Shown here: positions 314 through 37,392 of the stretch, piece by piece
Layout of the letters: every line of letters starts with the position of its first letter
Numbering within the stretch: position 1 is the stretch's first letter
Source: Myxococcota bacterium
GTDB lineage: Bacteria; Myxococcota; XYA12-FULL-58-9; JALHOP01
Reading direction: 5' to 3'
DNA: 64,000 nt
Assembly: GCA_022842935.1 (NCBI GenBank)
Contig: JALHOP010000021.1
Location: 1-64,000 of the forward strand
Translations under genes and position numbers: made by a program
The notes under the pieces: model-generated
Told to the model about the DNA's origin: nothing
Seen by the model: only the letters and a program-made list of their open reading frames with translations
Databases searched by the model: none

Positions 314-1535
314 CTTGCGGCAAAAGCGTGGGGGCATACTTCCGGCCGTCGATCCAGGCGTCCACGGTATCCGCCCACTCCTGCATCATATGCCGACGCT
401 GCACCTCATACTCGGCCTTGTTATAGACGCCGCGCGACGAACGCCCGTCCTCGTGCGCCAGGCACTTTTCGATCCAGTCGCTGTTAAAGCCCAGCTCATT
501 TAATAGCGTCGAGCCCGTACGCCGCAGATCATGGACCGTGAATGGCTCCAGTGGCAGCCCCTCCTTCTTAGCTCGCTCGACGACGGCGTAGGTGATCCGA
601 TTGAAAGTCGCGCGAGACATTGGCGCGTCCGCGTCGTACCGGGACGGCAAAAGATATCGGGAGTTGCCGGAGCAAGTCTTGAGCGCGATCATGATGTCTA
701 ACGTTTGTCGGCACAGGTAGACGTTGTGCGGCTTCGATCGCTTCATGCGCTCCTTCGGGATGGTCCAGACAGCGTTGTCGAAATCGATCTCGTCCCAAAC
801 TGCATCCTGCAACTCGCTCTTCCGGACCATGGTGAGCAGGTAGAGCTTCATACCGAGGCGGATCGTTGGCAACGTCGCAACATGCTCGAGCTGCTTGAAC
901 ATGATGCGGATCTCTGCGGGCGAGAGCGCGCGGTCCTTCGGCGTAAAGGTAGCGATCGAGGCTGGACCGACGTCATCGGCCGGATTGGCGACCTTCTCGC
1001 CGTGCAGAATGGCAAAGCCGTAGATCTGCTTCAGGATATCCCGCACATGGATAGCAGTTGCAGGCGCGCCCCGTTCGACGATCTTGCCGCAGTGAGTGCG
1101 TAGATCATCCGGTGTGATCTCCGTCAGGAGACGATTTCGCCAGACGGGCATGAGTTCGCGTTCGAAGATGGAGCGACGCATCGCGCGCGTGCTGTCGGCC
1201 ATGGTCGCGTTGGTCAGCCACTTCTCGCCGAACTGGCCGAAACTCTTTGCTTCCTTGATCCGGCGCTTCTCGCGCTGCTTCTCGATGGCGGGAGACCGCC
1301 CCTCGGTGATCGCGCGCCGCGCGTCGATGCATAGCTCGCGAGCCCTGGCGAGCGATATTCCGTCACGGGCATATCTGCCGAGATAGACGGTCTCCCGCCT
1401 GCCGTTCAGCCGATAGTCGAGCCTGAACGAGATGGCGCCCGACGGTGCGACGCGCACATACATGCCGTCACGATCGGAAACCTTGTACATTTTGGCTTTT
1501 GGTTTCAAAGACTTGAGTGCTGCATCGGTCAACAT
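279..1535 (-). CDS. Tyrosine recombinase / P4-type integrase
   Basis: Full-length 418-residue integrase of the P4/CP4-57 class. Residues 1-90 form the arm-binding domain (DUF4102-like, with GRRETVYLGRYARDGISLARAR). Residues about 100-185 are the core-binding SAM-like domain. The catalytic domain follows with R238 (MVRKSEL), K265, H335-x-x-R338 (HDLRR), H361 (LAHED) and nucleophile Y371 (VYNKAEY). All five recombinase signature positions are present, so it should be active. It catalyses site-specific integration and excision. The gene starts about 295 bp from the 3' end of guaA, the expected position for an element integrated there. Codon use and G+C look somewhat lower than in neighbouring chromosomal genes. 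Confidence 0.93.
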   Translation of the reverse strand: MLTDAALKSLKPKAKMYKVSDRDGMYVRVAPSGAISFRLDYRLNGRRETVYLGRYARDGISLARARELCIDARRAITEGRSPAIEKQREKRRIKEAKSFGQFGEKWLTNATMADSTRAMRRSIFERELMPVWRNRLLTEITPDDLRTHCGKIVERGAPATAIHVRDILKQIYGFAILHGEKVANPADDVGPASIATFTPKDRALSPAEIRIMFKQLEHVATLPTIRLGMKLYLLTMVRKSELQDAVWDEIDFDNAVWTIPKERMKRSKPHNVYLCRQTLDIMIALKTCSGNSRYLLPSRYDADAPMSRATFNRITYAVVERAKKEGLPLEPFTVHDLRRTGSTLLNELGFNSDWIEKCLAHEDGRSSRGVYNKAEYEVQRRHMMQEWADTVDAWIDGRKYAPTLLPQAMPLMELDPAL

Positions 1536-1552
1536 TTCGGGCCTCCTCGCGG

Positions 1553-1667
1553 AAAAGTACCGTCACGCGGTTTTTGCAGGCCGATGGCGTCGAAAATGCT
1601 TTTATTTCAGCGCATTAGTTCGAAAAAAGTACCGTCATTGGCCTCGTTTGACCTGACGGTACTTTCG
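1553..1667. repeat. Three GTACCGTCA elements upstream of integrase
   Basis: AAAAGTACCGTCA occurs at 1553-1565 and again at 1625-1637. Its reverse complement TGACGGTACTTTCG lies at 1654-1667. The last two form a 13-14 bp hairpin-like inverted repeat around a 16 nt spacer. Repeated short motifs next to an integrase are typical of arm-type integrase or excisionase binding sites, or of a repressor operator. Which of these applies is inferred from position. Confidence 0.6.
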
Positions 1668-1722
1668 TTTTTCCGGTTGATCAATGGGGGCGAGGCCCGT
1701 CAGCGAGGCCGCCGAACGCGAT

Positions 1723-1754
1723 CTATGCCCACCGATAGATATCGATAGGCATAG
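1723..1754. repeat. Inverted repeat CTATGCC...GGCATAG near attachment junction
   Basis: CTATGCC (1723-1729) and GGCATAG (1748-1754) are perfect 7 bp inverted arms. The spacer between them is itself rich in GATA/TATC. It lies in the AT-rich part of the integrase-guaA gap and could bind a recombinase, an excisionase or a repressor. No function is proven. Confidence 0.4.
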
Positions 1755-1829
1755 GATGGATTTATTTTTGTTTTCAGTATGTTAAGTCGTATCTTGGCGT
1801 AAATTCGGCGGCGTTCGGACGGGCCTGAA

Positions 1830-1856
1830 TCATTCCCACTCGATCGTCGCGGGCGG
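1830..1856. other. Candidate attachment site (guaA 3' end)
   Basis: The last codons of guaA (encoding ...TIEWE, then TGA) are a well-known target for integrative elements in many bacteria; the integrase restores the end of the gene on insertion. An integrase with its control region lies immediately beyond the guaA stop here. The boundary is a positional inference: the second att copy, at the other end of the element, is outside this window. Confidence 0.45.
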
Positions 1857-3392
1857 CTTGCTACTTACGTCATAGACAACGCGGTTGATCCCGCGGACCT
1901 CGTTGATGATGCGACTCGACATGCGGGCGAGCACCTCATACGGGAGGCGCGACCAGTCGGCAGTCATGCCGTCCGTCGAGTCGACGCAGCGGATGGCGAT
2001 GGTCTCGTCGTACGTGCGGTCGTCACCCATGACACCGACGCTGCGCACTGGCAGCAGCACCGCGAACGACTGCCAGACCTTCCGGTAGTAGTCAGCCGCG
2101 ATGATTTCTTCTTCGACGATGGCATCGGCCTGGCGAAGCACATCACAGCGCGCTTGGGTCACGTCACCGATGATGCGCACCGCAAGCCCTGGGCCGGGAA
2201 AAGGCTGTCGGTAGCAAAGGTGGTCCGGTAGGCCTAGCTCCGCGCCGAGCAAGCGAACCTCGTCCTTGAAGAGCTCGCGAAGCGGCTCGACCAGCTTCAT
2301 ACGCATCCGCTCCGGCAGCCCGCCGACGTTGTGGTGCGACTTAATCACGGCCGATGGCCCCTTGAAGCTCACCGACTCGATGACGTCGGGATACAGCGTA
2401 CCCTGCGCCAGGAAATTGGCGCCGGCGATGCTCTTCGCCTCGTGCTCGAAGACCTCGATGAACTTGCCGCCGATGATCTTTCGTTTCTTCTCGGGGTCGA
2501 CTACGCCCGCTAAAGCGGTCATAAAGGTCTCGCGTGCGTCCACGACCTGCAGTGGAAGATGCAGCGCGCGACCGAAGATGTCTTTGACTTGCTCGACTTC
2601 GCCCCGACGCAGGAGTCCGTTGTCGACGAAGATGCACTGAACCTGATCGCCGATGGCCTTGCCGAGCAGCGCCGCGACCACCGACGAGTCGACACCGCCC
2701 GACAAGGCGCAGATGACCTTCTCGTTTTTGGGGATATCGGCGCGGAGCTTCTTGATCTGTCCTTCGAGAAACGAGCCCATCGTCCAGGTGGGTGTCAGGC
2801 CCGCGATGTCGAAGAGGAAGGCCTCGAGGATTTGGATGCCGCGCGGCGTGTGAGCGACCTCGGGGTGGAACTGCAAGCCGAAGATGGGCTTTGACTTGTG
2901 CGCCATGGCAGCAAACGGAGTGCTGTCGGTGCTGGCGATGGCGACGAAGTCAGGGGGCAGCGCCTCGATGCGGTCGCCGTGGCTCATCCAGACTTCGAAG
3001 GGTTCGCCGGCATTGAAGGCATGGAGCAACGTGTCTGCTTTGCCCGTGGTCGCCCGGGTGCGCGAGACGAGAGCGCGGCCGTATTCGCGTTCGCTGGCTT
3101 GAACGACTTTACCGCCAAGCTCGTGTGTGAGGAGCTGTTGGCCGTAACAGATGCCCAGGAGGGGTCCGCTGCGCTCGAGGATGGCGCGGTCGACCTTGGG
3201 AGCGTTGGTGCCGTAAACCGACGAGGGGCCTCCGCTCAGGATGATGGCCGAGGGCTGGAACTTGTCGACGTCAGCGGGTGACATCGTGTGGGGGTGAATC
3301 TCACAATAGACGCGCAGTTGGCGGACGCGCCGGGCGATGAGCTGGGTGTACTGCGAGCCGAAATCGAGAATGAGGACGCGCTGGTCGGCCAT
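1830..3392 (-). CDS. guaA: GMP synthase (glutamine-hydrolysing)
   Basis: 520 residues, the usual GuaA length. It converts XMP to GMP using ATP and glutamine in the cytosol. The N-terminal class I amidotransferase domain has nucleophile C82 (GICYGQQ) and H176/E178 (QFHPE). The ATP-pyrophosphatase domain starts with the PP-loop SGGVDSS at 231-237. The C-terminal dimerisation domain ends with the conserved PPATIEWE. The frame stays open for 92 codons further upstream, but the family N-terminus is [14 protein letters not shown], so the ATG at 3392 is used. It is divergent from the TPR lipoprotein gene with 81 bp between them. Its 3' end borders the integrative element and is intact. Confidence 0.98.
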
Positions 3393-3473
3393 GACCCCGG
3401 GAAATCGCAGAGACGGCCCGGACTCGCAAGCGTTGAGCGAACGACCCCTCTTCGTGGTAGACAAATCGAGCAA

Positions 3474-4823
3474 ATGACTCGTTCCTGGCTGGGCGTTTTG
3501 TCCCCTCTCCTGCTCGCTTGTGGTCTTGCCTGCGCCGGCGGTGGTGGCAGCGGCGGCAGCCGTGCCAACATGAGCGGCGACGAGCTGCGCTCGAAAGGCG
3601 ATTTGAGCGGCGCCTACTCGGCCTACTTCAAGGAGGCCCAGAAGAAGCCGGACAACGAGAAGGTCCACACGAACCTGGGCGAGGTCGCCGTTGACCTCAA
3701 GCGCTACGACGAAGCCGTGGTCGCGCTCGAGAAGGCAAAGCAGCTCGGCGCTGGCAATCGCGCGACCGTCGCGCTCGCGGCCGCCAAGGCCGGCCAGGGC
3801 AAATTCGACGAGGCGTCCGCCATGATGGACGAGGTCCTCAAGGACGACGACAACGCCGAAAACTTCTACAAGGCCGGCAACATCAAGCTCGCAGCGCGTA
3901 AGCCGCGCGACGCCCAGCCGCTACTCGAGACCGCGCTCAAGAAGGACGGCAAGAAGCCCGAATACCAGGGAGCGCTCGGCCGCTGCCTATCGGCGCTCGG
4001 CCAGCACGACGAGGCCATCAAGACGCTCGAGAGCGTCCTGAAGGTCTACAAGAAGCAAGGGGCCGTCGCCGCCGAGATGGAGACCGCGCTCGGCAACTCC
4101 CTGGTCGCGACTGGCCGTATCGACGAGGCGTTCCAGAAGTACCGTCACGCCGCCGGCATGGACCCGCGCAACGGCGAAGCGCAGGCCCGCTACGCCGCCA
4201 TGCTGCGTGAGCGCGGTGACGTCGAGGGCGCCATCAACGTGTTGAAGGCCGCAGAGTCGAAGCAGCCCCGCTCGGGCTTCGTGCAGTACCAGCTCGGCCT
4301 TTCGTATCGCGACTTCAAGCTGCGCGACCAGGCCGTCGCCGCGCTGCAGAAGGCCATCCAATACGACCCAGGTCTCGGTGAAGCCTACGCCCCGCTGTTG
4401 TCCATGATGGAAGAGGACAAGGTCTCGACCGACAAGCTCTATGGCACTCTCGAGGCCGCGGCCAACGGCGCGCCGGACGACTTCGACCTGCAGATGCGCT
4501 TCGCGAAGCTCGCGGAGGGCAAGAAGCAATACGCGAAGGCACTCGCGGCCTACGACCGGGCCGTTCGGGCGACACCTGGGAACGTCGAGGCGAACTTCGG
4601 CCTTGGCTCGATGCAAGTCGCGATGGGCAAGATCGAGGACGCCAAACAGTCGTACGACGCGCTGCGCACCATCGACGAGATGAAGGCCGCCGACCTTCTC
4701 GCGATCATCGAGCGCGCCCCACCGCCCCAGCAGCCGAAACAGGCACAAGCGGACACACCCAAGCCCGCCAAGGGTAAGGCGAAGCAGACGAAGAAGGCCA
4801 AGGCAAAGAAGAAAGGCCGTTAG
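3474..4823 (+). CDS. TPR-repeat lipoprotein
   Basis: 449 residues. The N-terminus [17 protein letters not shown] is a lipoprotein-type signal with a Cys after LLLA, followed by a Gly/Ser linker (GGGGSGGS). From about residue 40 to 400 it consists of tetratricopeptide-like helical repeats: A..Y.EA.....A.....P.. units recur about every 34 residues. The tail is highly basic ([19 protein letters not shown]) and could contact peptidoglycan, LPS or nucleic acid. The ATG at 3474 is chosen over an upstream in-frame start because it begins the signal peptide. The kinase gene follows after 3 bp, so the two are probably co-transcribed. It is likely an envelope scaffold or assembly protein; the partner is unknown. 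Confidence 0.85.
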
Positions 4824-4826
4824 CCC

Positions 4827-5519
4827 ATGAGTGTCCTCGCCGTCGACATCGGTGGCAGCAATTTGAAGTTCCGTACTCAGCACCATAAGGCCCACGTCTC
4901 GGTGCCGTCGGGTCCCCACTTCACCCCCCGCCAAATGATCGCCGCTATCGCGGAGCACGCATCCGGCTGGAAGTTCGACCGTGTGACGCTCGGCTATCCC
5001 GGCCCCGTGGCGAACGACCGCCCCCTGCTCGAGCCGCACAACCTCGGCCGGGGCTGGACTCGCTTCGACTACGCCAAGGGGTTCAAGCGCCCCGTGCGCA
5101 TGATCAACGACGCCGCGATGCAAGCCTTAGGCGCTTATCGCGGTGGCCGCATGCTGTTCCTCGGCCTCGGTACCGGTTTGGGATCCGCCCTCGTCCTCGA
5201 CGGCGTCGTCCAGCCCATGGAGCTCGCCCACCTCACCTGGCGCAAGGGCAAGACCTACGAAGAGCACCTGGGCGAAGCGGCCCTCCTCGGCGAGGGCAAG
5301 AAGGCCTGGCGCAAGTCGGTCACCCGCGCCATCGAAGACCTCTCGGCGGCATTCCTGGTCGAATACATCGTCATCGGCGGCGGCAACGCCAAGCGCGTCA
5401 AAGACGTCCCCGACAACGTCTACATCGGCAGCAACGCGGACGCGTTCGTCGGCGCCTTCCGGGTCTGGGACGACCCCGTGGTCAGCCCGCGACGAATTTC
5501 GCCGCGGCTTGCGGGGTAG
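4827..5519 (+). CDS. ROK-family sugar kinase-like protein (polyphosphate-glucokinase type)
   Basis: 230 residues of the ASKHA fold. Phosphate-1 motif VDIGGSNLKF lies at about residues 6-15. YPGPVAN and HNLGRGW follow, then INDAAMQALGAY with the presumed catalytic Asp, the GLGTGLGSAL phosphate-2 motif and IVIGGG near the end. These match the ROK/polyphosphate glucokinase group, which phosphorylates glucose with ATP or polyphosphate. The usual ROK zinc motif is not apparent, as in the polyphosphate-dependent subgroup. It is somewhat shorter than typical family members. It starts 3 bp after the TPR gene. Substrate and phosphate donor cannot be fixed from sequence. Confidence 0.8.
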   Translation: MSVLAVDIGGSNLKFRTQHHKAHVSVPSGPHFTPRQMIAAIAEHASGWKFDRVTLGYPGPVANDRPLLEPHNLGRGWTRFDYAKGFKRPVRMINDAAMQALGAYRGGRMLFLGLGTGLGSALVLDGVVQPMELAHLTWRKGKTYEEHLGEAALLGEGKKAWRKSVTRAIEDLSAAFLVEYIVIGGGNAKRVKDVPDNVYIGSNADAFVGAFRVWDDPVVSPRRISPRLAG

Positions 5520-5964
5520 CTCTCTGAGCGGTGCCGCTGATTGAACAGCACCAGCCGTGGATGATTGATGTTTTCCGAGTGCGTGCGGGATTTGCCTTTT
5601 CGCACCGCTCGGCTCGGCCGTGGTTAGCGCGCCTCCCGCGTCGAGACCGAGAGCAGGCCAGGTACACTAGCCCAGGAATAGTCGCACGCCGTCTTCTCGC
5701 ATCCGGTGGCCGGCCCTCGGGTCCATGTGCCCCAAAATTCTAGTGAAGATTTGCTCTGATCTCCAGTGGACTCCAGCCCATCGATTTCGGGAACCTCTGG
5801 GTGACCCTTGGGCGATTCACTACCTGCGAAGTGGCTGCAATGGGCGATCGTTGGACGAAAGCCGGCCACGGGCGCGCAGTCAATTCGGTACGTATTGCGG
5901 ACCGGTCACGGCAGTGATGAGCACAGCTTTCTCCACGCTCAGCGGCTAGCCGAAGAAACCAGCG
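5520..5964. other. Gene-poor stretch, nothing recognised
   Basis: 445 bp between the kinase gene and the convergent gene 5965-6678. Short frames exist on both strands, but none has family-like composition, a good ribosome site or the third-position G+C bias of real genes here. No tRNA, clear terminator or insertion-sequence end was seen. It could be decayed DNA. Confidence 0.4.
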
Positions 5965-25294: not shown

Positions 25295-26932
25295 ATGTGC
25301 TCGCGCACCGTGGCTCTGGCCACGACCATGGTTTTCCTCGCGCTCGGCGACATTGGTCACGCTGGAGCGGCGCCCGAGCGTGTCGCCGCTGCGGGGCGAC
25401 GAGCAACCGCCAAGAAGCCCAAGCCGCAAACCAAGCGCGTGGTCGAGCCCGAGCTCGAAGCCCCACCGCTCGAGGAGCCACCGAAGCCAGCCGAAGCCTC
25501 CGGGGTGCCGGGTCCACCAGCTCTGTCCAACAAGTACCGCGCGGTCGCCATCTTACCCTTCGAAGCGTCGGACGTCGGCGAATCGCTGATTCGTTCCATC
25601 GAGCAGGCATTGACGAGCGAAATCGAAGACAAGGGTGGCTTTCGTGCGGTCTCACCGCGAGACGTCGTCAGCGAGGCGTCCTCCTACAACCTCGACCCCA
25701 GCAAGTGCCCGAGCGAAGACGTCGGTTGCTGGGCACAGGTCGCGCGCCACGCACGCGCTCACCTCGCCATCGTCACCCGCGTCGCCGCGCTTGGCGGAGT
25801 GCTCAACCTATCGTTACGCTTGTTGGACGCTCAGACTGGTAGCGAAGTTGGCCGCGTAGCCGAGGCATTGTCCGACAAAGTGGACGAGCGTGCGGCGCAG
25901 ATCCACCGCATGGCGGTGCAGTTGTTTGCTCCTGCGGACTACGTCGGCACTCTCATCGTGAAGAGCGACGAGGCTGGCGCCGACATCTACCTAAACGACA
26001 AGCTGGTCGGCACGACACCCCTGAAGACGCCGCTCAAGAACCTGCCGGCGGGGCCTTATATTTTGCACGTGGCCAAAGAAGGCTTTGCCGACGTCTACCA
26101 GTTCGTCGATGTCGCCTATAACCGCGTCTCCACCATCACGGTGAGCCTCGCGACCAACACCATCTCGGGGGCAATCGCTTTCGGATCCGATACGGGCTTC
26201 GGCAGCTTGTACGTCATTTCGGATTTACCTGAAGTCGAGGTGCGCATTGACGGCGAACCCAAGGGCATGACGCCCCTCGAGGGTGCCATCGCCCAAGTCC
26301 CCGCAGGAAGTCGCCGCCTATCGCTGCGTCGCGGCAACGCCGCCCCGCTGGTGCGCGAGCTCGTCATCGAGAAAGGCAAACGCACGGACGTTGGCGTCAG
26401 CGTCGCCCCCGACGGTACCCTCACCGCGATCGTCATCGTGAGCGCCATCGACAGTCCGTTACCCGTCGACCCAGGCTTGTCGACGCCAGTGGCGAGCGTC
26501 AACGCGACGGCTGCGCCGGCGCAGCGCAGCCACCCCGTATTCACCAGTGGCCTCGTCGTCGCCGGTCTCGGGGTCGTTGGTCTCGGCGTCGGAGGTTTTT
26601 TTGCGAGCCAAGTGCGTGCGGCCACCAACGATGCCACGCGGTACGAGCGCATCATTCGTACGAGTGACGACCCGGTCGAACGCAGCGATGCCAGGGAGAG
26701 GCTCGCCGAGCTCAACGCCAGCGGTCCGAACAAGGAACGCAACCAATGGGTTGCGCTCGGGGTCGGTGGTGGCCTTCTGCTCACCGGTGGACTCCTGATG
26801 GCTGCGGACCACTGGCACTGGTTCGGAATCGGAACCGCGAGCGCCGCTCGCGCTCCGGACGATGACTTCCGGGTAGGCGTCTTTCTGGGGCCTGGTGGCG
26901 GCGGCATGTTGAGTGTCGCGGCTCCGTGGTAG
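25295..26932 (+). CDS. PEGA-domain exported protein
   Basis: 545 residues. A signal peptide (about 1-26) precedes a Lys/Pro/Glu-rich linker (27-75). Next comes a domain of the FlgO/TolB-N-like type (RAVAILPFEASDVGESLIRSIEQALTSEIE..., about 80-215), with a CPSEDVGCWAQVARHARAHLAIVTRV segment. Two PEGA-like carbohydrate-binding repeats follow (about 220-285 with LIVKSDEAGADIYLNDKLVGTTPLK, and about 305-375 with VEVRIDGEPKGMTPLEG). Two hydrophobic segments lie near 410-435 and 480-500. It is probably periplasmic and inner-membrane anchored. It is translationally coupled to the next lipoprotein gene (GTG start overlapping its TAG). Confidence 0.85.
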   Translation: MCSRTVALATTMVFLALGDIGHAGAAPERVAAAGRRATAKKPKPQTKRVVEPELEAPPLEEPPKPAEASGVPGPPALSNKYRAVAILPFEASDVGESLIRSIEQALTSEIEDKGGFRAVSPRDVVSEASSYNLDPSKCPSEDVGCWAQVARHARAHLAIVTRVAALGGVLNLSLRLLDAQTGSEVGRVAEALSDKVDERAAQIHRMAVQLFAPADYVGTLIVKSDEAGADIYLNDKLVGTTPLKTPLKNLPAGPYILHVAKEGFADVYQFVDVAYNRVSTITVSLATNTISGAIAFGSDTGFGSLYVISDLPEVEVRIDGEPKGMTPLEGAIAQVPAGSRRLSLRRGNAAPLVRELVIEKGKRTDVGVSVAPDGTLTAIVIVSAIDSPLPVDPGLSTPVASVNATAAPAQRSHPVFTSGLVVAGLGVVGLGVGGFFASQVRAATNDATRYERIIRTSDDPVERSDARERLAELNASGPNKERNQWVALGVGGGLLLTGGLLMAADHWHWFGIGTASAARAPDDDFRVGVFLGPGGGGMLSVAAPW

Positions 26933-29205
26933 GCGCGCTGCGCGCAAGCGCTTGCTTGCTCGCCGCCTCCATCGCCTGCGGCGTCGACATCGAAACGCCC
27001 GCCGACTTGCGGATCCGCTGTGTCGACGGCGACGATTGCCCAACCGGGCGCTGCAGCGTCACTGTCGATGTCTGCATCGCCGCAGACGACGATGACTCAC
27101 CTTTACGTGTCATCAGCGTCGAAGCGCTCGACTCGCGCCGAATCGTTGTGCTGTTCAATCGCGTCGTCGATCCGGTCTCGGCTGCGGACTACACGGTCTA
27201 CGCCTTGAGCCCTGCCCTCTCGCCCGAGTCCGCCGTGGTCGCGGACGACCGGCTCAGCGTCACGGTGCAGACAACCCAGCAGAAGTTGCGCACCTACCTG
27301 CTCGACGTCGTCGATGTGTTCGACCCCATCGGCCGTCCGCTTGAGCGCACACAGCGGGAGTTCACAGGCATCGGCGAGCAGGTCAGCGGCCAGGCGCCAA
27401 CCCCCCTGTCACCGCCCGACCGGACCCTCTTTGCGGAGCCGAGCGTGACGTTAACGTGGAGCGCACTCGAGGAGGCGGTGAACTACGCAGTCGAGGTCGT
27501 TCGTGAAACGCCCTCGGGCGACGTCCCGATCGAAGGGTCGCCGTTCATCCTACGTGGCACGGAGCTCACGCTGTCGGTCGCAGCAGACGCCACGTACTCT
27601 TGGCGGGTTACGGCGGACATCAGCCGCGAGCCTCCGGTGACCTCGTCTTTCGCGGTCTTCGGCGAGGCTGTGCACGTTTACTGTGCGGCCTCGGCTGACT
27701 GCGCGTCGCCGGAGAGCTGGGACGCGGGGACGAGCGCAAAACCAATGCGTCGGATCGGGCGGGCTCTCGCTCTCGGGGCCTTTCTCTCGCGCCCGGAGCT
27801 TCGTATCGCCGGTCGGGGCGGCGGCGCCGTCTACGAGGAGGCTCTCATCCTGGGCGCATCGCTTGCGCGTGTAAGCGGGGGCTATGACCCGACGTTTACG
27901 GTCGTCGACCCGGTTGCGACACCCACCGTCATCCGCGGTGACCCCGCGGCCGTGCGGGTCGTGACCAATGCTCGGCTCGAGATGGTGGACCTCGAGCTGC
28001 ACGCGGGTGGTGGAGCCGCGCTGGTACTGACGGGAATCGACGATTTCACAGCGACGCGCCTTACGCTGCGCTCCACCAACGGCGCTCGGCCGCTCGACGC
28101 CCGGCGATGCACCCCTGGGCGAGTCGCTTCGTTCTTCGACCTGCGCGCGGGTGTGTTGTTGGGTTCGGGGGCTCCCGCCGCAGCGCGGGTGGCAGGCGCC
28201 TGCGAGGCTCTCTTCGACCACGCTGCGCTCGAGGGCGCCGGCATCGAGGTGACGCGTGCAAGCGCGACCTTCCTCGATTCGTCAATCGTCGCGACCGACG
28301 GACGCCCCTCGGAAAGCCAGGGATATTCGGGTATCGACATCACAGCAGTGAGGGCCGACGGTGGTGCAGTGATCATGGAGCGCAGCGTCGTCCGGGCTGG
28401 CGTGGACGACGATGCCTCGAACCGCGTCGCCTTGCTCGTCCGGGATGGGGGTAACGTTCGGGTCAACGCGAGCAATCTGGTCGCTGCCCGTGTCGGCAGC
28501 AGCGACTGTTTTCCGCAGAATTGCCAAGGCGGCGCGAGCGCACTCATCGTCAACCCGACTGGTGACCTCTTTGAAGAGCTGGCCACCGTCGAGGTCATCG
28601 TAACCAACACGGTCCTCGTCTCCAGCGCGCAGCCCAGCACACCCGACCTTACCGCGTCGACCGTGCAGGTCGGCGCCAACTCGAAAGTCTCGCTCATTCA
28701 CGACATCATCTACGTACGGGATGGAACCGGTATCGTCGCCGCAGCCCAAGCTCCGAGCGGCGACTTACAACTGCTCAACAGCGCGGTGGTGTGTGAAGGG
28801 AGCAGCACGGGCGCCGACAACCTTTCCAGCGTGCCTCCGCGCTTGCTGCGTGCGAGTGCTTTCGTGGGCTGTGCGACGCCCTACCGTCGCCAAGGGGTGA
28901 GCTACACCACGGCGACCGCCATCGAGACCATCAGCGATCCCGCGCCGCACACTTTCACCGGCCTGCATGTCTTCGGCGCCCCCGTCGTCGCGACGTTTCC
29001 GTTCTATAGCGGCGCGGACGGCACGGCTGGAACCGCGGACGATGATTGGTCGTGCAGTGCCGCGTGCTCTGAGCTTGGGGAACCGAGCCAAGCCGACATT
29101 TGTGGCGCGAGCGGCGCGGGCCCGTGCGCCGCGCAGGTGACGCAGGACAGTGTCGGCGCGATGCGCACCCTGCCCGTCAGTCTCGGGCCCCGCGAGGTCG
29201 ACTGA
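26926..29205 (+). CDS. Large Cys-containing lipoprotein, paralogue 1 (beta-helix-like)
   Basis: 759 residues. The lipoprotein signal MVGALRASACLLAASIAC is followed by a Cys cluster RCVDGDDCPTGRCSVTVDVC. A bacterial Ig-like domain (about 60-150) and a fibronectin-III-like domain (about 160-245, ATYSWRVTADI) follow. A long region of short beta-strand repeats (about 260-640) resembles a right-handed parallel beta-helix (DUF1565/pectate-lyase-like, with PMRRIGRALALGAFLSRPELRIAGRGGGAVYEEAL). The tail is Cys-rich. The GTG start overlaps the PEGA gene stop, and the stop overlaps the start of its paralogue (TGATG). It is likely an outer-membrane or surface lipoprotein; function unknown. Confidence 0.85.
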   Translation: MVGALRASACLLAASIACGVDIETPADLRIRCVDGDDCPTGRCSVTVDVCIAADDDDSPLRVISVEALDSRRIVVLFNRVVDPVSAADYTVYALSPALSPESAVVADDRLSVTVQTTQQKLRTYLLDVVDVFDPIGRPLERTQREFTGIGEQVSGQAPTPLSPPDRTLFAEPSVTLTWSALEEAVNYAVEVVRETPSGDVPIEGSPFILRGTELTLSVAADATYSWRVTADISREPPVTSSFAVFGEAVHVYCAASADCASPESWDAGTSAKPMRRIGRALALGAFLSRPELRIAGRGGGAVYEEALILGASLARVSGGYDPTFTVVDPVATPTVIRGDPAAVRVVTNARLEMVDLELHAGGGAALVLTGIDDFTATRLTLRSTNGARPLDARRCTPGRVASFFDLRAGVLLGSGAPAAARVAGACEALFDHAALEGAGIEVTRASATFLDSSIVATDGRPSESQGYSGIDITAVRADGGAVIMERSVVRAGVDDDASNRVALLVRDGGNVRVNASNLVAARVGSSDCFPQNCQGGASALIVNPTGDLFEELATVEVIVTNTVLVSSAQPSTPDLTASTVQVGANSKVSLIHDIIYVRDGTGIVAAAQAPSGDLQLLNSAVVCEGSSTGADNLSSVPPRLLRASAFVGCATPYRRQGVSYTTATAIETISDPAPHTFTGLHVFGAPVVATFPFYSGADGTAGTADDDWSCSAACSELGEPSQADICGASGAGPCAAQVTQDSVGAMRTLPVSLGPREVD

Positions 29206-31415
29206 TGCGCTGGCTTGCACCTGTCTTGCTCGCGCTTGCCATGGCGTGCAGCGTCTCCCTCGTCGCCGATGGCATAGCCGTCGTATGCGACGCGGACGAC
29301 GACTGCCCGACGGGGCGCTGCGAGATCGCGCTACGTCGGTGCTTTGCGGCTGGGAGCGGTACCCCACTGCGTTTGACGTCCGCCGTGGCGGTCTCGTCCG
29401 TACGCGTCGACGCCGTGTTCAATCAAGCCGTCGCGCCGGGGAGCGTCGTCGACCTGGGGCAAGTCACGATCGAGCCGGCCCTTACAATCACCGGGATCGC
29501 ACTCGACCCGAGCAATCAACGCTTGTCGGTGACAACCGCGCCCCAAGCCTTCGACGTCACGTACACACTTACCGTCGCGGGCTTCGTAAGCAACCTGGGA
29601 GATGCCCTCGATGCTGAGGCGCGAACGCAATCGTTCGTCAGTTACCTCGGGCTCGCGGATCGGAGCCCACCCGCTATCATCCGCCCAGCCGACGGTAGCC
29701 GCGTCGTCGGGGGTGACGTCGAATTCGCCTGGCAAGCAATTAGCAACGTGACGACCTACACGATCGAGGTGCAGCGCCGCGACGACGTCGCCGCGCCCAT
29801 CGTCGTCGAGGTGCCTGGCGGCACCACGCTCACGACGATCAACCTCCCGCTCGAAGGCACCTATGACTGGCGGGTGCGGGCAGACGTTACCACTCCGGGT
29901 GTCTACAATAGCGCAGCTTTCGATGCCCTGGTCGACGCGGTGTACGTGTCCTGCCCCGATGGTGAATGCCCGGCCCGTATCGGCAACGGGAGCCGGCGCG
30001 CACCGCTGCAGCGGATCACCGAGGGTTTAGCGCTCGCCCAACAGCTCGGACTCGTCACGGTCCGCATCGCGGCGCGCTCGAACGGGGGGAGTTACGAGGA
30101 GGTCCTGGTGCTCGCGGATACCGGGGTGACCGTCGACGGGGGGTTCGACGCGAGCTTTACGCCCGGTGCTGGACGCGCCGAGATCAGCGCGGTTGGAACC
30201 GTGCTGGTCGCAAGACCCTCCGTGGAGCCCCTGCGCATCAAGGGCGTCCTGCTGTCTGCCCTACAGGCGCCGATCCTCGAGGTCGTCAGCGTCGAGGGCG
30301 CGACCAACATCACTCTCGAGGACGTCGTCATCATGGCAGAGCCAACCAACGAGAGCAGCATTGGTATCAGCGCCGATGGGCGGCCTGGGGTCGCCGACGT
30401 CCACCTCGACGGTGTCACGATGCTTCTTCCGGGCAGCCTCTTTGCGACCGAGCTTTTGGTTGGCATTCGCGCGCGCGAGACGCGCCTCGTGGTCAATGAC
30501 AGTTTGGTCTCCGTTGGGGTGGAGCGAGCAGCGACAGAAGTCCTCGAAGCGCGCGGCATCGAGCTCCTTGGTTCGGCCGCCTTCAACGCCACGCGTGTGG
30601 ATGTCGCGGTGGGCTACTCCATGATTTTCTCAACTGCGCTCTTCGACGACCGTTTGGCGAGACCCGTGGGCGCGGTGCCGTATGACGTGATCGACAGTTC
30701 CCGTTTTTGGGTGCCGGTCGCCAGAGAGACCATCGTGACCCTCTTCAACAGCCGCATCCGCGAGCTCGTCGTCCGCAATAGCGTCATCGTCGCGGGAGCG
30801 GCTCCACTGGCAGAGGCTGTTCGCCTCGGGCCGACCGGTGGCACTGGCGTTGGCCCCAGGTTCATTCACGACTTCATCCAGGTCACCAGTGAGCGTCCCG
30901 CGGACGCGATCAACAGCAGCAGGAAGGGCTTCGTCGTCGCCAATTCCTTCATCACGGCCGCGCCATGCACAAGCCTGGAATGTGCCACCTCGACGAATCC
31001 CTGTATCGACACCAACAACGACAGCGGGCCTTCGACGCTCGTCGGCACGGCTCTCGCGTGCCAAGTGCCGTACGTGGGGACGGGTCTCGGCGCTCCGGAC
31101 TTCAACGCGCCGTCTCCGACCTGCACCGACGGCATGGGGCGTGTCATTCGCTGCGATGGAACCTTCATGGTCGCGCCCCCCATCGACGGCTTCTTTGCCG
31201 ACCTCGATGGCCCCGATGGCGCCATCGCGGAGGCTCGCGACAACGACTATCATCTGGTGCCGGCCGCCCCGGCCGCCCTGCGAAGCGGAGGTGCGACCAT
31301 CACGGGCAATGTCTGTGGCTACGCGGACCAAGCACTGCCGTGTGAAGCCGGGAGCGTCGATGCGGATGGTACACCCCGCAGCGCGCCTTTTTCGATTGGG
31401 CCTTACGAATACTAG
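29205..31415 (+). CDS. Large Cys-containing lipoprotein, paralogue 2 (beta-helix-like)
   Basis: 736 residues with the same plan as the preceding gene. It has a lipoprotein signal (MRWLAPVLLALAMAC), a Cys cluster CDADDDCPTGRCEIALRRC, an Ig-like domain with VFNQAVAP, an FN3-like domain (YDWRVRADV) and a beta-helix region opening with RAPLQRITEGLALAQQLGLVTVRIAARSNGGSYEEVL. It ends SAPFSIGPYEY. The shared DDDCPTGRC motif, domain order and adjacency show a tandem duplication that has since diverged strongly. The ATG at 29205 overlaps the upstream TGA; the longer in-frame start has no signal peptide. It is convergent with prfB. Probably a surface lipoprotein; role unknown. Confidence 0.85.
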   Translation: MRWLAPVLLALAMACSVSLVADGIAVVCDADDDCPTGRCEIALRRCFAAGSGTPLRLTSAVAVSSVRVDAVFNQAVAPGSVVDLGQVTIEPALTITGIALDPSNQRLSVTTAPQAFDVTYTLTVAGFVSNLGDALDAEARTQSFVSYLGLADRSPPAIIRPADGSRVVGGDVEFAWQAISNVTTYTIEVQRRDDVAAPIVVEVPGGTTLTTINLPLEGTYDWRVRADVTTPGVYNSAAFDALVDAVYVSCPDGECPARIGNGSRRAPLQRITEGLALAQQLGLVTVRIAARSNGGSYEEVLVLADTGVTVDGGFDASFTPGAGRAEISAVGTVLVARPSVEPLRIKGVLLSALQAPILEVVSVEGATNITLEDVVIMAEPTNESSIGISADGRPGVADVHLDGVTMLLPGSLFATELLVGIRARETRLVVNDSLVSVGVERAATEVLEARGIELLGSAAFNATRVDVAVGYSMIFSTALFDDRLARPVGAVPYDVIDSSRFWVPVARETIVTLFNSRIRELVVRNSVIVAGAAPLAEAVRLGPTGGTGVGPRFIHDFIQVTSERPADAINSSRKGFVVANSFITAAPCTSLECATSTNPCIDTNNDSGPSTLVGTALACQVPYVGTGLGAPDFNAPSPTCTDGMGRVIRCDGTFMVAPPIDGFFADLDGPDGAIAEARDNDYHLVPAAPAALRSGGATITGNVCGYADQALPCEAGSVDADGTPRSAPFSIGPYEY

Positions 31416-31502: not shown

Positions 31503-32616
31503 CTACTCGAGCTCCTTCTGATCGGTCGCCGTTTTGCCGAGGAGATACGCTTCGATGAAGCCATCGAGGTCGCCGTCGAGCACGGCATCGGTGTTACCCG
31601 CTTCGTGTCCCGTGCGATGGTCCTTCACCAGGCGATAGGGCTGCAGCACGTACGAGCGGATCTGCGAACCCCATTCGATTTTCTTCCGGTCGCCGGCGAG
31701 TTTCTCTCGCTCTTCCTCGCGTTTGCGAAGCTCGAGCTCGAAGAGTTTGGCGCGCAACATCTTCATCGCCTTGTCTCGGTTCTTGTGCTGACTGCGCTCG
31801 GCCTGACAGGCGACCACGATGCCCGTCGGCATATGCGTAAGTCGAATGGCGGACTCTGTCTTATTGACGTGCTGTCCACCCGCGCCACTCGAGCGGTAGG
31901 TGTCGACGCGCAGGTCTTCGTCGCGAATCTCGACTTTCACGTCATCGTCGATCTCGGGCGCCGCTGCGACCGACGCAAACGACGTGTGGCGGCGCTTGGC
32001 TGAGTCGTAGGGGCTGATGCGCACCAAGCGATGCACGCCCTGCTCTGCCTTCAGGTAGCCATAAGCGTACGGGCCCGTGATCTCGAGGGATGCGCTCTTG
32101 ATGCCAGCCTCCTCGCCGTATTGAACGTCGAGCACCTCGACCGTGAAATCGTGCTGCTCTGCCCAGCGGCTCAGCATGCGCATGAGCATTTGAGCCCAGT
32201 CCTGACTCTCTGTGCCGCCGGCACCAGCGTTGATCGAAAGTAGAGCGTTGTTCTTGTCGTATTCGCCTCCGAGCATGCGCTGGAGCTCGAACTGTTCGAC
32301 CGCCTTCCTCGCGGTGGCGATGTTGTTGTCGACCTCGGTGGCGATCTCGGCGTCCTGATCGGCGAGCTCGAGCAAACCTTCCGCGTCGGAGAGGAGCTTA
32401 CCGACGTAGCGAAACTGCTGCACGACGCGCTCGAGACGGGTGCGTTCTTGCTGGAGCTTCGCAGCAGCCTGCGCGTCTTGCCACAGCGCGGGGTCGCCGG
32501 AGCGTTCTTCGATCTCGAGGAGCTGTTTCTCTAGGCCGGCGATGTCAAAGATGCCTCCGCAGCAAGGAGACGCGGTCTTGGAGCTGCGTGAGGAGTGGCT
32601 TGCGGTCGTCGCTCAT
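31503..32616 (-). CDS. prfB: Peptide chain release factor 2 (programmed +1 frameshift)
   Basis: Encoded as join(32616..32548, 32546..31503) on the minus strand: 23 codons, then a +1 shift skipping one base, then 347 codons, for a 370-residue RF2 (E. coli 365). The first part starts at ATG 32616 and meets an in-frame TGA at 32547-32545 in the context CTT TGA C. After the shift the protein continues DIAGLEKQLLEIEERSGDPALW, the normal RF2 N-terminus. It recognises UGA/UAA and hydrolyses peptidyl-tRNA. The GGQ motif is present in RSSGAGGQHVNKTESAIR. A simple ORF call beginning at 32423 would lose about 64 residues. It starts 34 bp downstream of the CFA-fusion gene. Confidence 0.95.
32544..32559 (-). 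promoter_or_regulatory. prfB programmed +1 frameshift signal
   Basis: The minus strand reads CGGAGGCATCTTTGAC. It has a Shine-Dalgarno-like GGAGG three bases before the slippery codon CTT, the in-frame stop TGA and a following C. This is the canonical autoregulatory site: low RF2 lets the ribosome shift to GAC, while sufficient RF2 terminates at the 24th codon. All elements (SD-like spacer, CUU, UGA C) are intact. Confidence 0.95.
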
Positions 32617-32650: not shown

Positions 32651-35380
32651 TCAACCGCTCGACGCGACCTGTTCGGCGATACGCTTGGCGAACGCGTTGA
32701 CGTCGGCCATGGTGCTCATCGACAGCGCCTCGTTGGCGTAAAACGTGCCGCGCTCGCCCTGGAGATTGCGAGCGCGCTCGAAGAACCTGTCGCAGCGCAT
32801 GGCGTCACCGTCGACGTGGGGGAAAAACTTCCAGCGGCGGGCCTCGACGAGCTCGACCTTGGTGGCGCCGAGCTTGCCCATGTCCTCGCGGATCTTCGCC
32901 ATGACCGCGTCGTCACTCAATGCCTCTGGCGCGAACAGATGGAAAACAAAGACATCGTCGTCGGCATAGCGCTTGATCCAAGCCATGGGGTGGCCAGCGC
33001 GGTCTTCGAGCATGTTCTCGCGAAGATAGCCAACCTCAGCCCTCCCTTCGGCAAGGCCCCGAACGCGGCACGCGAAGGTGCTGTAGGGCATATGCTTGAT
33101 CAGCGAGAAGACCTGACGTTCTTCGCTGCTCGCATCGAGGACGCTCACTGCCTGCGACGGATCGCAGGCAACCACGACACGGTCATACGCCGTCTTGCCC
33201 GTCGCGGTCTCGACCATCGGGCGCACGCCCGAACGATCGATGCCGAGTACCGGTGTGTTCAAGCGGACATCGAGGTCCTTTGCGACTCCCTCCCAGATGG
33301 GCGTCGTGCCGTTCTCCCACATGAGAAGCTCGCCGCTGGCCGCGCCGACGATCGCCTTGGGTCCCAGCATGCGGAAGCCGAAAACAGCGGGTGTGCTGGC
33401 GGGAAAGCCGTATCCATAGCCCGTAAGATAGGTGTCGAGCGCGCTACCGACGGCGCTGAAGCCGTAACGTTCAGCGACGATTCCAAAGGGCTCGGCGAGA
33501 TCCTCGTGAGGAACTTCGAGGTTGCCGTCGCTCTTCGCGCGGAACCGCATGTTGGTCGCGATGTATTGCAGCGCACCCGCATAAAACGCCGCGGTCTCCG
33601 AGAACGTCCGTGGAGCACGCTTCGTACCGGTCGTCAGGTCGTATTGCACTTGCGGAGGGAACGCCGTGGCGCGCGCGCTGCTCGCCTCACCGAGCCGTAC
33701 AACGTCGTCGTACATGTACGGGACGCCCATGGTCGCACCGAGGTCATGGGGGCGGCCGGCGATGTCCACTGTGTAGCTCTTACCGCCGACCCTCTCGCTT
33801 GCTTCGAGCACAACGACGTTCGCGTAACCCCTGGCGCGGAGCTCGCTCGCGACCGACAAACCCGAGGGGCCCGCCCCGATGACGCAAATGCGCGCGCCCG
33901 GGTCCAATGCCTGCGCAGGGAGCGACGGCTTGGGCGCGGCCATGCGCGCGATGTACTTCGTTTGCTCCGTGACCGCGGCAACGCAGCGCTTGATTGCGTC
34001 GGCTTGCTCCGGGGTCGCGCGCAGCGCGTCGAGCTTGGCGCGACTGGGCAGCTCGCGCACCGATTCACGCGACGCGTCTGGTCCGCCTTTGCGGTAGACG
34101 ACCTGATCGACGTTCATCCGTTCGCTGCGGAAGCCACCTGCGATGCTGAGCAGGTAGAAGTCCCACATGCGCTTGAATCGGTCGCCGTAATCGCCAGCGA
34201 GCTCTGGCCAGGCGCGGGTGAAGTTGTCGTGCCAAGCCATCAGCGTCTTGTCGTAGCTATCGGTGATGCGGTGCACGTCCTCCGCACCGCCAAACCAGTC
34301 GGCTGCGGCGGTATCGACCTGGCCCCGCGAAGGAGCGCAGCCGTCCGCGAAGATGTACTCGGAGAACCAGGCGTTGCTCCCGTAGACATCGTTTTTGTCG
34401 CAGATGGCTTGCAGCGCGAAGGTGCCGCCACGTTTGAGACATGACTGCGCGCAGTCGAAATACGCGTGCAGATTGTGGGCGCCAACGGCCTCGATCATCT
34501 CGATCGACACGACGTGGTCGAAGTGGTCCTTGGGGAAGCGCTTCGGGATGTCGCGATAGTCGCTGTACATGAAAGAAACGTCCCCGACGCCCTCGGACAA
34601 AGCCCGCGCTGCCTTGAGCTGCTCGTTCGAAATCGTCAGCCCCACCACACGGGCGCCGTAGTGTTTGGCGGCGTAGCGCGCGAAACCGCCGAAGCCGCAG
34701 CCAATGTCGAGCACGCGATCGCCTGGTTTCAGGCCCATCTTGCGGCACAACAGGTCGTGTTTGGCGTTCTGCGCGTCCTCGAGCGTGTAACCCGGCGCGA
34801 ACACACCGCTCGTGTACGCCATAGTCGGCCCAAGCTGATGCGAATACAGGACGTTGCCAACGTCGTAGTGCTCTTTGGCCACCTTCGTCGAGCGCGCGAT
34901 GGTCTGACGATTGGTTAGCGCGTCGCGCAGGTAACGAAACGTCTTGCGCGCGCCGGCCTCGGCGACCGCCAAGGGGGCCTGGCACAGTACGGCGGGCTCC
35001 ATGAGCTTGGCGCGGACCCGCGAGCCGGTCAGCCGCTCCGTGAGCTGATCGATGGCAGCACAATCCCAAAGGCCGTCCATGTACGTGACGCCGATCTGCA
35101 GATCGGGGTCGCGCAAGATACGCCTGAAGAACGCGGGGTCGTTGACCTTGAGGTCCCAGGGATTTGCACCGTTGACCTGAACGCCCGCGCTCGCGAGGAG
35201 CTCCACGACGACCCGCTGGGCCCCGTCGGTCGCGGCGCCACTGCGGCATTTTTCGGCGCTGTCGGCTGCAAACGGGGCACGCGTGGTCTGGGCCTGTTTG
35301 GGGGGGCTGCTCCCTGGGGCTTGCACATCGGGGCGGCGTACAGCTCCCCCATTGCCGACACGCGTGTCCTTCATCGTCAC
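32651..35380 (-). CDS. Fusion: cyclopropane-fatty-acid-synthase-like methyltransferase + FAD amine-oxidase-like domain
   Basis: 909 residues. Residues about 60-435 are a CFA synthase-type SAM methyltransferase (HYDVGN 171-176, SAM motif VLDIGCGFGG 223-232, EYIFADGCAPS, MAWH, QVVY). Residues about 495-905 are a flavin amine-oxidase/desaturase-like domain with FAD motif GAGPSGL 502-508 and E526 of VVVLEASERVGGKS. Against E. coli Cfa, recalled from memory, bicarbonate-site residues C139 and H266 align to S191 and Q324, while E239 (E297), I268 (I326) and Y317 (Y376) are kept. Substrates are probably unsaturated phospholipid acyl chains; the product may not be a simple cyclopropane. Starts at GTG 35380 or ATG 35374. 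It lies between lnt and prfB. Confidence 0.9.
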   Translation of the reverse strand: MTMKDTRVGNGGAVRRPDVQAPGSSPPKQAQTTRAPFAADSAEKCRSGAATDGAQRVVVELLASAGVQVNGANPWDLKVNDPAFFRRILRDPDLQIGVTYMDGLWDCAAIDQLTERLTGSRVRAKLMEPAVLCQAPLAVAEAGARKTFRYLRDALTNRQTIARSTKVAKEHYDVGNVLYSHQLGPTMAYTSGVFAPGYTLEDAQNAKHDLLCRKMGLKPGDRVLDIGCGFGGFARYAAKHYGARVVGLTISNEQLKAARALSEGVGDVSFMYSDYRDIPKRFPKDHFDHVVSIEMIEAVGAHNLHAYFDCAQSCLKRGGTFALQAICDKNDVYGSNAWFSEYIFADGCAPSRGQVDTAAADWFGGAEDVHRITDSYDKTLMAWHDNFTRAWPELAGDYGDRFKRMWDFYLLSIAGGFRSERMNVDQVVYRKGGPDASRESVRELPSRAKLDALRATPEQADAIKRCVAAVTEQTKYIARMAAPKPSLPAQALDPGARICVIGAGPSGLSVASELRARGYANVVVLEASERVGGKSYTVDIAGRPHDLGATMGVPYMYDDVVRLGEASSARATAFPPQVQYDLTTGTKRAPRTFSETAAFYAGALQYIATNMRFRAKSDGNLEVPHEDLAEPFGIVAERYGFSAVGSALDTYLTGYGYGFPASTPAVFGFRMLGPKAIVGAASGELLMWENGTTPIWEGVAKDLDVRLNTPVLGIDRSGVRPMVETATGKTAYDRVVVACDPSQAVSVLDASSEERQVFSLIKHMPYSTFACRVRGLAEGRAEVGYLRENMLEDRAGHPMAWIKRYADDDVFVFHLFAPEALSDDAVMAKIREDMGKLGATKVELVEARRWKFFPHVDGDAMRCDRFFERARNLQGERGTFYANEALSMSTMADVNAFAKRIAEQVASSG

Positions 35381-35415: not shown

Positions 35416-36906
35416 CTACTCAACTTTCGCGCTGTGCCGCCGCAGAGCCACACGATCGATGAGGCGAATGAAGCCGAGCCCCACGGTGATGAGGGCGAGC
35501 CAGACGATGACGTCGCCGACTCGGACATACGGCGTGGTCGTGTCACGCATCCCGATGTCTCCGGTGAGTACCGTCTCCTCTCCCAACGCGGTCTCGCCGA
35601 CGATGCGGCCCCGGGGGTCGATGACCGTCGAGATCCCGGTGTTGGTCGCGCGGGCCACCCAGCGGTCGGTCTCGACCGCGCGCATCACATAGGCATCGCG
35701 GTGCTGGTAGGGGCCGCTGGAGGCTCCGTACCAGGCATCGTTGGTCAGGTTTACGAGGAACCGCGCGCCACGGAGCGCGAGCCCCCGACTGATGGCGGGA
35801 AAGATCCCGTCGTAGCAAACCATGGCGCCTGCTCGCGTCGCGCCGATCGGATCCGTGTGGCGCCCGGCCCGCATCTCGCCCATCTGAGGAACGATGGCGC
35901 TGAGGGCAAGAAGACGCGCAAAAGGCACGTATTCGCCGAACGGGACGAGCGCGATCTTATCGTAGCGCCCCGCCACACTGCCGTCGGCATTGACGGCGAA
36001 AGCGGAGTTCGTGACCTGGCTGTTTCCGTCCTCGAAACGGAGCGTCGCCGCACCGATGATGGTGGGGATGGTCCCCGTCGCGAACGGAAAGAGCACGATG
36101 CGAGGGTCGGGCCGCCCGGGCCACGCTGCCTCGGGCCACACGGCGAGCTGGGCGCCTGCGTCTTGGGCGCGTTTGGTGAGGTCCTCGTAGGTTGCACGGA
36201 TGGTGACCGCGTTGTCGAGGTCGCGGTTCTTGATGTCCTGGGCAATGTTGCCCTGTAACAAACCGACCCGCAGGGTCTCGACGTCTCCGCGAGAATGGAC
36301 CAGCCGCAGCCCCCCCGCGAGATGGAGGAGCGCGACGAAGAGCCCGACGATGGTGCTCGACCAAGGGCGCCCACGCAGGTCGCCAATGGCCGCTCCACAG
36401 AGCGCGACAACCGCAGTCACGGCATGGCTGCCACCAACGGCGGCGAGCTGCACCAGCGGTAGGTCGCGCGCCATGGCCCAGCTCCACTCGCCCCACGGGA
36501 ACGCGGCGATCACCCAACCGCGCAGCCAGTCCACCGTGAGTACCGCCGCTGCGAACGCGAGATACGGGTGAACGATCCGCACCGCCAAAGCAGCCAAGCG
36601 CGGAATGAGCGCCCAGTACGCGGCGCAATAAGCGATGAGGAGCACGAGTGCCGGCATCGCTTGCCAGGCTGGCATGCCGCCGTAGCGGAGCATTGCGATC
36701 GATAGCCACCAGAGCAATACGGCGAAGAAGCCCAGGCCCGCGGCGAACGGCTCGCGTCCGCGATAGAGGTAAGCTGCGCCGAACAGCAAGAAGACTTCGC
36801 GTGGTAGCCATTCGAACAGCGGCCCCTCGCCAAACCCGGGCACCGCGAACGGAAAGGCGAGCGCCGAAAGAGCGCCGACCATCAAGCCGAAGACGATGCG
36901 GGTCAC
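35416..36906 (-). CDS. lnt: Apolipoprotein N-acyltransferase
   Basis: 496 residues. It adds the third acyl chain to the N-terminal Cys of lipoproteins on the periplasmic face of the inner membrane, the step before Lol sorting. About six N-terminal membrane helices (1-205) precede a nitrilase-like domain with the catalytic triad E259 (VWPEAAW), K317 (RYDKIALVPFGEYVPF) and C364 (MVCYDGIFP). A last helix lies near the C-terminus (VIVWLALITVGLGFI). Its start overlaps the end of ybeY by 4 bp, the conserved ybeY-lnt neighbourhood. The fusion gene follows after 35 bp. Confidence 0.96.
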   Translation of the reverse strand: MTRIVFGLMVGALSALAFPFAVPGFGEGPLFEWLPREVFLLFGAAYLYRGREPFAAGLGFFAVLLWWLSIAMLRYGGMPAWQAMPALVLLIAYCAAYWALIPRLAALAVRIVHPYLAFAAAVLTVDWLRGWVIAAFPWGEWSWAMARDLPLVQLAAVGGSHAVTAVVALCGAAIGDLRGRPWSSTIVGLFVALLHLAGGLRLVHSRGDVETLRVGLLQGNIAQDIKNRDLDNAVTIRATYEDLTKRAQDAGAQLAVWPEAAWPGRPDPRIVLFPFATGTIPTIIGAATLRFEDGNSQVTNSAFAVNADGSVAGRYDKIALVPFGEYVPFARLLALSAIVPQMGEMRAGRHTDPIGATRAGAMVCYDGIFPAISRGLALRGARFLVNLTNDAWYGASSGPYQHRDAYVMRAVETDRWVARATNTGISTVIDPRGRIVGETALGEETVLTGDIGMRDTTTPYVRVGDVIVWLALITVGLGFIRLIDRVALRRHSAKVE

Positions 36907-37355
36907 CCGGTGTGGGTACGCCGCCTTGCCCCCGCTTTCAACACGCGCAGGAGACGCTCTTCTTCACGCTTCATTTTCCGCGCCTGCGGGCCGCCGTGGA
37001 TGTGGTCGTGCCCCACCAGGTGCAAGATCCCGTGCACAAGCAGGCGCTCGAGCTCGGCGCTCAAGTCGTTACCGAACCTCGGCGCCTGGCGCGAGGCTGT
37101 CTCGACGCTGATGATGACATCACCCAGCACGCGGGTGCGCTCGAAGTCCGCCTGGGGAAAGGACAGCACGTCGGTCGGCTTATCCTTGCCCCGCCACTGC
37201 CGGTTCAGCGCGTGAATCGTCGCGTCGTCGGTGAGCACGAGCGACAGCTCGCCGTCCGAAAAGCCGATAGCAAAGAGGACCAGCCTCGCCTTTTTCGCCA
37301 GGTCGCGGACCGACACCCGTCGGTCACGCGCCTGATTGTCGACACTGACGGCCAT
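36903..37355 (-). CDS. ybeY: Endoribonuclease YbeY
   Basis: 150 residues. This is a zinc-dependent endoribonuclease for 16S rRNA 3'-end maturation and ribosome quality control. The zinc motif HGILHLVGHDH supplies three His (108, 112, 118 from this start). GKDKPTDVLSF and LGDVIIS are the other family signatures. The ATG at 37355 gives the family N-terminus MAVSVDNQ; an upstream in-frame GTG at 37382 would add nine residues but has no ribosome site. It overlaps lnt by 4 bp. The Arg/Lys-rich C-terminus (ARKMKREEERLLRVLKAGARRR) is longer than usual. Confidence 0.93.
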   Translation of the reverse strand: MAVSVDNQARDRRVSVRDLAKKARLVLFAIGFSDGELSLVLTDDATIHALNRQWRGKDKPTDVLSFPQADFERTRVLGDVIISVETASRQAPRFGNDLSAELERLLVHGILHLVGHDHIHGGPQARKMKREEERLLRVLKAGARRRTHTG

Positions 37356-37392
37356 GGCTTTACTTCGCGCCTCGTCCGCCACGACGGCGCAC

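Follow-up and report, generated by a model that had tools for sequence, protein, structure and literature searches.

Enzymes of the cyclopropane fatty acid synthase (Cfa) type have been described in company with flavoproteins in both plants and bacteria. In cotton, GhCPS1 carries Ser602 and Gln737 at the positions of Cys139 and His266 of Escherichia coli Cfa, and in yeast, in tobacco cells and in Arabidopsis it yields cyclopropane fatty acid; the C139S variant of E. coli Cfa retains 31% of the catalytic efficiency, and the role of the flavin domain in the plant synthases has been stated as undetermined (PMC3132707). The two halves of Arabidopsis AT3G23510/AtUFAMD1 are reported to be 38.5% identical to UfaD and 34.3% identical to UfaM (PMC10940516), and UfaD desaturates a methyl-branched phospholipid chain (PMC7380195). 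Engineered tmsA-B fusions, which join genes of the 10-methylstearate system, are functional (PMC7762315), and a redox mechanism has been stated for isomerases of the type of polyunsaturated fatty acid isomerase (PAI; PMC13365329). A literature search returned no description of a fusion between Cfa and a PAI-like domain, or of the desaturase operon reported below for its relatives.

Such a fusion is encoded in the window, a stretch of 64,000 nucleotides at the start of contig JALHOP010000021.1 from a Myxococcota bacterium (assembly GCA_022842935.1, here G000). The coordinates of the gene, its domains and its neighbours are given in the table; an alternative GTG start at 35380 would lengthen the protein to 909 residues. 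In searches of PDB sequences, E. coli Cfa (6bqc) matches residues 49–433 (9e-83), and the Propionibacterium acnes PAI (2b9w) accounts for the C-terminal part, within which Pfam Amino_oxidase is found at residues 504–766 (1.8e-17). Pfam and PDB matches thus bear out the arrangement given in the preliminary description, with a Cfa-like methyltransferase at the N terminus and an FAD domain at the C terminus of one polypeptide; its assignment of the latter to the amine-oxidase-like proteins holds, and the PAI-like character of this half had been missed. The CMAS and N-terminal lipid-binding domains are both present, as in Cfa-type synthases, and the Cfa half scores 393.9 bits, narrowly under the cut-off of 400 for the NCBIfam Cfa equivalog (NF008686). 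The AlphaFold model has a mean pLDDT of 54.6, is poor in the Cfa half and does not give the mutual orientation of the domains, being too weak for claims on the active site or interdomain contacts; its top Foldseek match is 2b9w (6.6e-27), and 6bqc is also recovered.

Coordinates of the fusion gene, its domains, selected residues and neighbouring genes in the window
Feature	Position	Strand	Basis or remark
Fusion gene (Cfa-type methyl(ene)transferase and PAI-like flavin domain)	32651..35374	-	Single open frame, 907 aa from ATG
N-terminal lipid-binding domain as in E. coli Cfa, aa 49-153	34916..35230	-	6bqc alignment starting at aa 49
SAM-dependent CMAS catalytic domain, aa 161-425	34100..34894	-	PF02353, 2.7e-66
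Linker, aa 432-491	33902..34081	-	27% identity to L064 linker, almost without gaps
PAI-like FAD domain, aa 491-899, with GxGxxG...RVGGK motif	32678..33904	-	2b9w, 1.7e-41
S189 (S191 in the preliminary description), aligned with E. coli C139	34808..34810	-	Alignment
E292, aligned with E. coli G236	34499..34501	-	Always together with Q at the H266 position
Q322 (Q324 in the preliminary description), aligned with E. coli H266	34409..34411	-	Alignment
lnt (apolipoprotein N-acyltransferase), upstream neighbour	35416..36906	-	Homologues next to ybeY and prfB in order-mates
ybeY, overlaps lnt	36903..37382	-	PF02130, 2.4e-34
prfB, downstream neighbour	31503..32616	-	Programmed frameshift site CTTTGAC at 32544-32550

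The bicarbonate-site set of E. coli Cfa (Cys139, Glu239, His266, Ile268 and Tyr317) is incomplete in the fusion protein: Glu239, Ile268 and Tyr317 are retained in the alignment, and Cys139 and His266 are replaced by Ser and Gln, as had been proposed from the sequence. Two further changes, Gly236 to Glu and His240 to Ala, had been overlooked. Positions 236 and 266 are coupled among 41 Cfa proteins, with Gly/His in 22, Glu/Gln in 19 and no exceptions, and the pair has switched at least twice on the Cfa tree; because only two independent switches enter an independent-pairs test, significance is out of reach. The change at His240 tracks this pair in all but three of the 41 proteins, the exceptions forming the group to which the second Cfa-like gene of the window's genome belongs. 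Plasmids of Burkholderia and Aeromonas encode Cfa proteins with the same Ser/Glu/Ala/Gln set next to homologues of UfaD and UfaO. Glu at position 236 corresponds by motif to a substrate-contacting Glu of plant N-methyltransferases (PMC6730481) and, by analogy, may take over from His266 or from bicarbonate in the fusion protein. The Ser/Gln motif does not tell cyclopropane and furan-type products apart, because cotton CPS1 makes cyclopropane with the same residues and because these residues also occur beside UfaD and UfaO homologues. The idea that the Ser/Gln pair precludes ring closure was rejected on the cotton data, and the earlier suggestion that Ser and Gln imply a product other than cyclopropane fails on the activity of the cotton enzyme and of E. 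coli C139S (PMC3132707). Exchanging Gly236/His266 for Glu236/Gln266 in E. coli Cfa would be a simple way to learn what replaces the bicarbonate-site histidine.

By sequence, the flavin half is closest to the Propionibacterium PAI, to which it is approximately 26% identical, and not to the more distant UfaD; PAI, which moves double bonds, is the single characterised enzyme of this flavin group. Two PAI residues that we take to be substrate contacts are not kept: Arg88, in a region that aligns poorly, is replaced, and Phe168 has become Tyr, so that isomerase activity does not follow from the homology. The loss of Arg88 would be compatible, if weakly, with a substrate whose carboxylate is not free, for instance a phospholipid chain. 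TmsA is a flavoprotein of the FAD_binding_4 type, and a TmsA-like identity of the flavin half was rejected because a Pfam search of the fusion protein gave no FAD_binding_4 match. PAI-like flavin domains were also observed in larger frames. In an order-mate, one lies within a polyketide-type megasynthase, between an acyl-carrier-like stretch and a ketosynthase (L026, G001:C81, frame 2–5800, minus strand), and in an 812-residue frame (L010/L032, G045:C8:118958–120211) such a domain precedes an acyl-carrier-like stretch and a part resembling an esterase. The association of these domains with acyl-carrier-like stretches suggests that this flavin group has repeatedly met acyl substrates.

When approximately 85,000 species genomes were scanned with an alignment of the flavin proteins of the window and of G065 (Deltaproteobacteria bacterium SZAS-2), three loci were recovered; the FAD half of the window alone, used as the query in the genome-contig scan, had found no relative. 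The first locus, L064, is a second fusion, of 900 residues and the same architecture, in an independent MAG. Its identity to the window's protein is 58% over the catalytic part of Cfa, 51% over the FAD domain and 27% over the linker, where 16 of 59 positions agree in a nearly gap-free alignment, a value equalled by 4 of 20000 shuffles. That the linkers can be aligned argues for descent of the two fusions from one fused ancestor. The other two loci carry both halves as separate genes of one operon with three desaturases, an arrangement missed in the preliminary description. In Myxococcales bacterium RYN_366 (L065), a single contig encodes a TetR regulator, an FA_desaturase, a PAI-like FAD protein, a cyt b5-desaturase, a second FA_desaturase and a Cfa that extends to the contig end; the same order is found in G065 (L066) across two contigs that overlap end to end by 25 identical bases within the cyt b5-desaturase frame. 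Separate halves in close relatives had been expected to weaken the fusion claim. They are indeed seen in these two Myxococcota, but they lie in one operon and a second fusion exists, which strengthens the functional link between the halves. No desaturase adjoins either fusion gene. Among 195 genomes of the phylum the fusion is present in G000 only, none was found in the plasmid and viral collections, and, at the threshold applied, no other genome of the phylum has the b5-desaturase of the G065 operon.

The trees of the two domains agree. In the Cfa tree, the window and L064 group together (100/99), these join the operon Cfas of L065 and G065 (100/97), and the whole group is sister to E. coli-type Cfa (97/97); in the FAD tree, the corresponding values are 100/99 for the two fusions and 99/98 for these with L065 and G065. 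This agreement means that the two domains share one evolutionary path, whether as separate proteins or as a fusion. UfaM-like proteins are separate in the best Cfa tree, which holds no characterised UfaM, and forcing them to join gives an AU p value of 0.06. UfaD homologues, identified like those of UfaM by gene order rather than by assay, form a group of their own (100/100) that excludes the window's FAD half, in a tree that holds no plant sequence. As the Arabidopsis fusion is reported to consist of UfaD-like and UfaM-like parts (PMC10940516), the bacterial fusion is probably a convergent analogue of the plant fusion, with an independent origin, a comparison that depends on that report and on homologues called by gene order. 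Two further gene sets were noted. An order-mate has a UfaD–DUF1365–UfaM-like cluster (L027, G001:C276:4000–14000), placing a furan-type set in the order and not in the window's genome. On a plasmid of Leptolyngbya sp. NIES-3755 (L073, 1–6075), two FAD proteins, an E. coli-type Cfa that keeps His266 and a phosphoketolase stand in a row, and the amine oxidase among them branches with the UfaD group, but far from it.

The fusion gene is the third in the order ybeY–lnt–fusion–prfB, which agrees with its earlier placement between lnt and prfB. The order-mates G004 and G007 have an uninterrupted run of ybeY, lnt and prfB in which lnt and prfB are direct neighbours, which leaves two histories, insertion of the fusion gene in the window's lineage or its loss from that of G004 and G007; the scattered occurrence of the gene, in 1 of 195 genomes of the phylum, would favour gain over loss. 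Owing to the classical CTTTGAC frameshift site, the plain open frame of prfB (31503–32423) lacks the N-terminal part of the protein. Beyond prfB, at 26926–31415, two adjoining long frames of similar layout, with a Cys-rich N terminus containing 'DDCPTGRC' and a repeat-like body, look like paralogous secreted proteins.

Taken together, these features make it somewhat probable that the fusion is a bifunctional acyl-chain-modifying enzyme, which would add a methyl or methylene carbon and shift or add a double bond. We know of no activity for any member of its subfamily. Acyl-chain modification, as put forward in the preliminary description, is likely, both halves matching enzymes of known acyl chemistry. 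In the proposed scheme, the N-terminal half would bind membrane phospholipid and use SAM to add one carbon at a cis double bond, the phospholipid chain being suggested as substrate by the lipid-binding domain and the SAM site (Cfa mechanism, PMC11387697); the product of this step could be either a cyclopropane or a methyl-branched alkene, the sequence being compatible with both. The FAD of the C-terminal half would then abstract an allylic hydride from that chain and either return it elsewhere, shifting the double bond as in PAI, or pass it to an acceptor such as oxygen, creating a new double bond as reported for UfaD. The fusion would thereby unite two steps performed by separate genes of the desaturase operon in the relatives, where the company of three desaturases ties both halves to the metabolism of unsaturated chains. 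The architecture, the homology of both halves and their operon linkage in two relatives are observed; both activities are assigned by homology, and their order, the shared substrate and the product are inferred. Four desaturases and a 3104-residue PfaA-like synthase (L094, 6181–15495, G000:C1; 917 bits, under the cut-off of 1010) in the window's genome could supply unsaturated chains, a suggestive context. More tentatively, desaturases, a PAI-like flavoenzyme and a Cfa of the Glu236/Gln266 type may together form a new lipid pathway of Myxococcota, whose product would bear a double bond, shifted or conjugated, as well as either a cyclopropane or a methyl branch; two of its steps would have become fused in two lineages, independently of plants.

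The protein might instead be a cyclopropane synthase of the ordinary kind, its flavin half having no part in chain catalysis and serving only for stability, membrane binding or redox sensing. Cotton CPS1 makes cyclopropane with the Ser/Gln pair and retains 30% of its activity without the oxidase domain, which raises activity only and is dispensable for ring formation (PMC3132707), and the sister position of the Cfa half to E. coli-type Cfa fits an accessory flavin domain as well. The flavin half is, however, conserved nearly as well as the Cfa catalytic part between the two fusions, its FAD motifs are intact, and in the relatives it is a separate protein within an operon of chain-modifying desaturases; a purely accessory role is considered unlikely. 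The two reactions could also run in reverse order, the flavin half first conjugating or shifting double bonds in a polyunsaturated chain that desaturases or a Pfa-type synthase had produced, and the Cfa half then adding its carbon to one of them. PAI, the nearest characterised relative of the flavin half, acts on methylene-interrupted dienes, and both the cyt b5-desaturase of the relatives' operon and the PfaA-like gene of the window's genome are consistent with such a substrate, but the two PAI contact residues are not kept, the PfaA-like score is under the family cut-off and the order of reactions is not fixed by that of the domains, leaving this sequence of steps rather improbable.

A one-protein equivalent of UfaM and UfaD, leading towards furan fatty acids as the preliminary description allowed, is very unlikely. 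A pair of Cfa-like and flavin proteins does start the furan pathway (PMC7380195) and the Ser/Glu/Ala/Gln motif is common to UfaM-like proteins, but UfaO (DUF1365) was not found in the window's genome, which is 97% complete, or in G065; the FAD half does not belong to the UfaD group, and the best tree separates the Cfa half from the UfaM-like proteins, although a joint group is not rejected. In a draft genome of 46 contigs, such a fusion might be suspected to be an assembly chimera or two genes read through by chance; this is effectively ruled out by L064, an unrelated assembly that has the same fusion with an alignable linker. The bifunctional enzyme stays the preferred reading.

In comparison with described systems, the fusion resembles the plant cyclopropane synthases (cotton GhCPS, Arabidopsis AT3G23510/AtUFAMD1) in uniting Cfa-type and FAD-oxidase-type domains in one polypeptide, and cotton GhCPS1 also in having Ser and Gln at the Cys139 and His266 positions (PMC3132707). 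It differs in domain order, FAD preceding Cfa in plants and Cfa preceding FAD here, an inversion that had been described beforehand and that the Pfam positions confirm, and in subfamily, the Arabidopsis halves being UfaD-like and UfaM-like (PMC10940516), whereas the fusion combines a PAI-like FAD domain with a Cfa sister to the E. coli type. With E. coli Cfa (6bqc) it shares 42% identity, the N-terminal lipid-binding domain, the SAM site and Glu239, Ile268 and Tyr317, and it departs from that enzyme in C139S, G236E, H240A, H266Q and the flavin domain. PAI (2b9w) is the best match of the flavin half in both sequence and fold, but is not fused and has the Arg88 and Phe168 that the fusion lacks. 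In the UfaM/UfaD/UfaO system, a Cfa-like methylase likewise works with a desaturase on phospholipid chains (PMC7380195), and the Glu/Ala/Gln motif is shared with UfaM-like proteins, but the flavoprotein belongs to another FAD subfamily and UfaO has no counterpart in the window's genome. TmsB and TmsA, which form 10-methylstearate, are a methyltransferase and a reductase that act in turn. The bacterial fusion, built from other subfamilies than the plant enzymes, in the reverse order and from halves that are desaturase-operon partners in relatives, suggests repeated coupling of Cfa chemistry with flavin chemistry, and it provides bacterial proteins in which this coupling can be tested.
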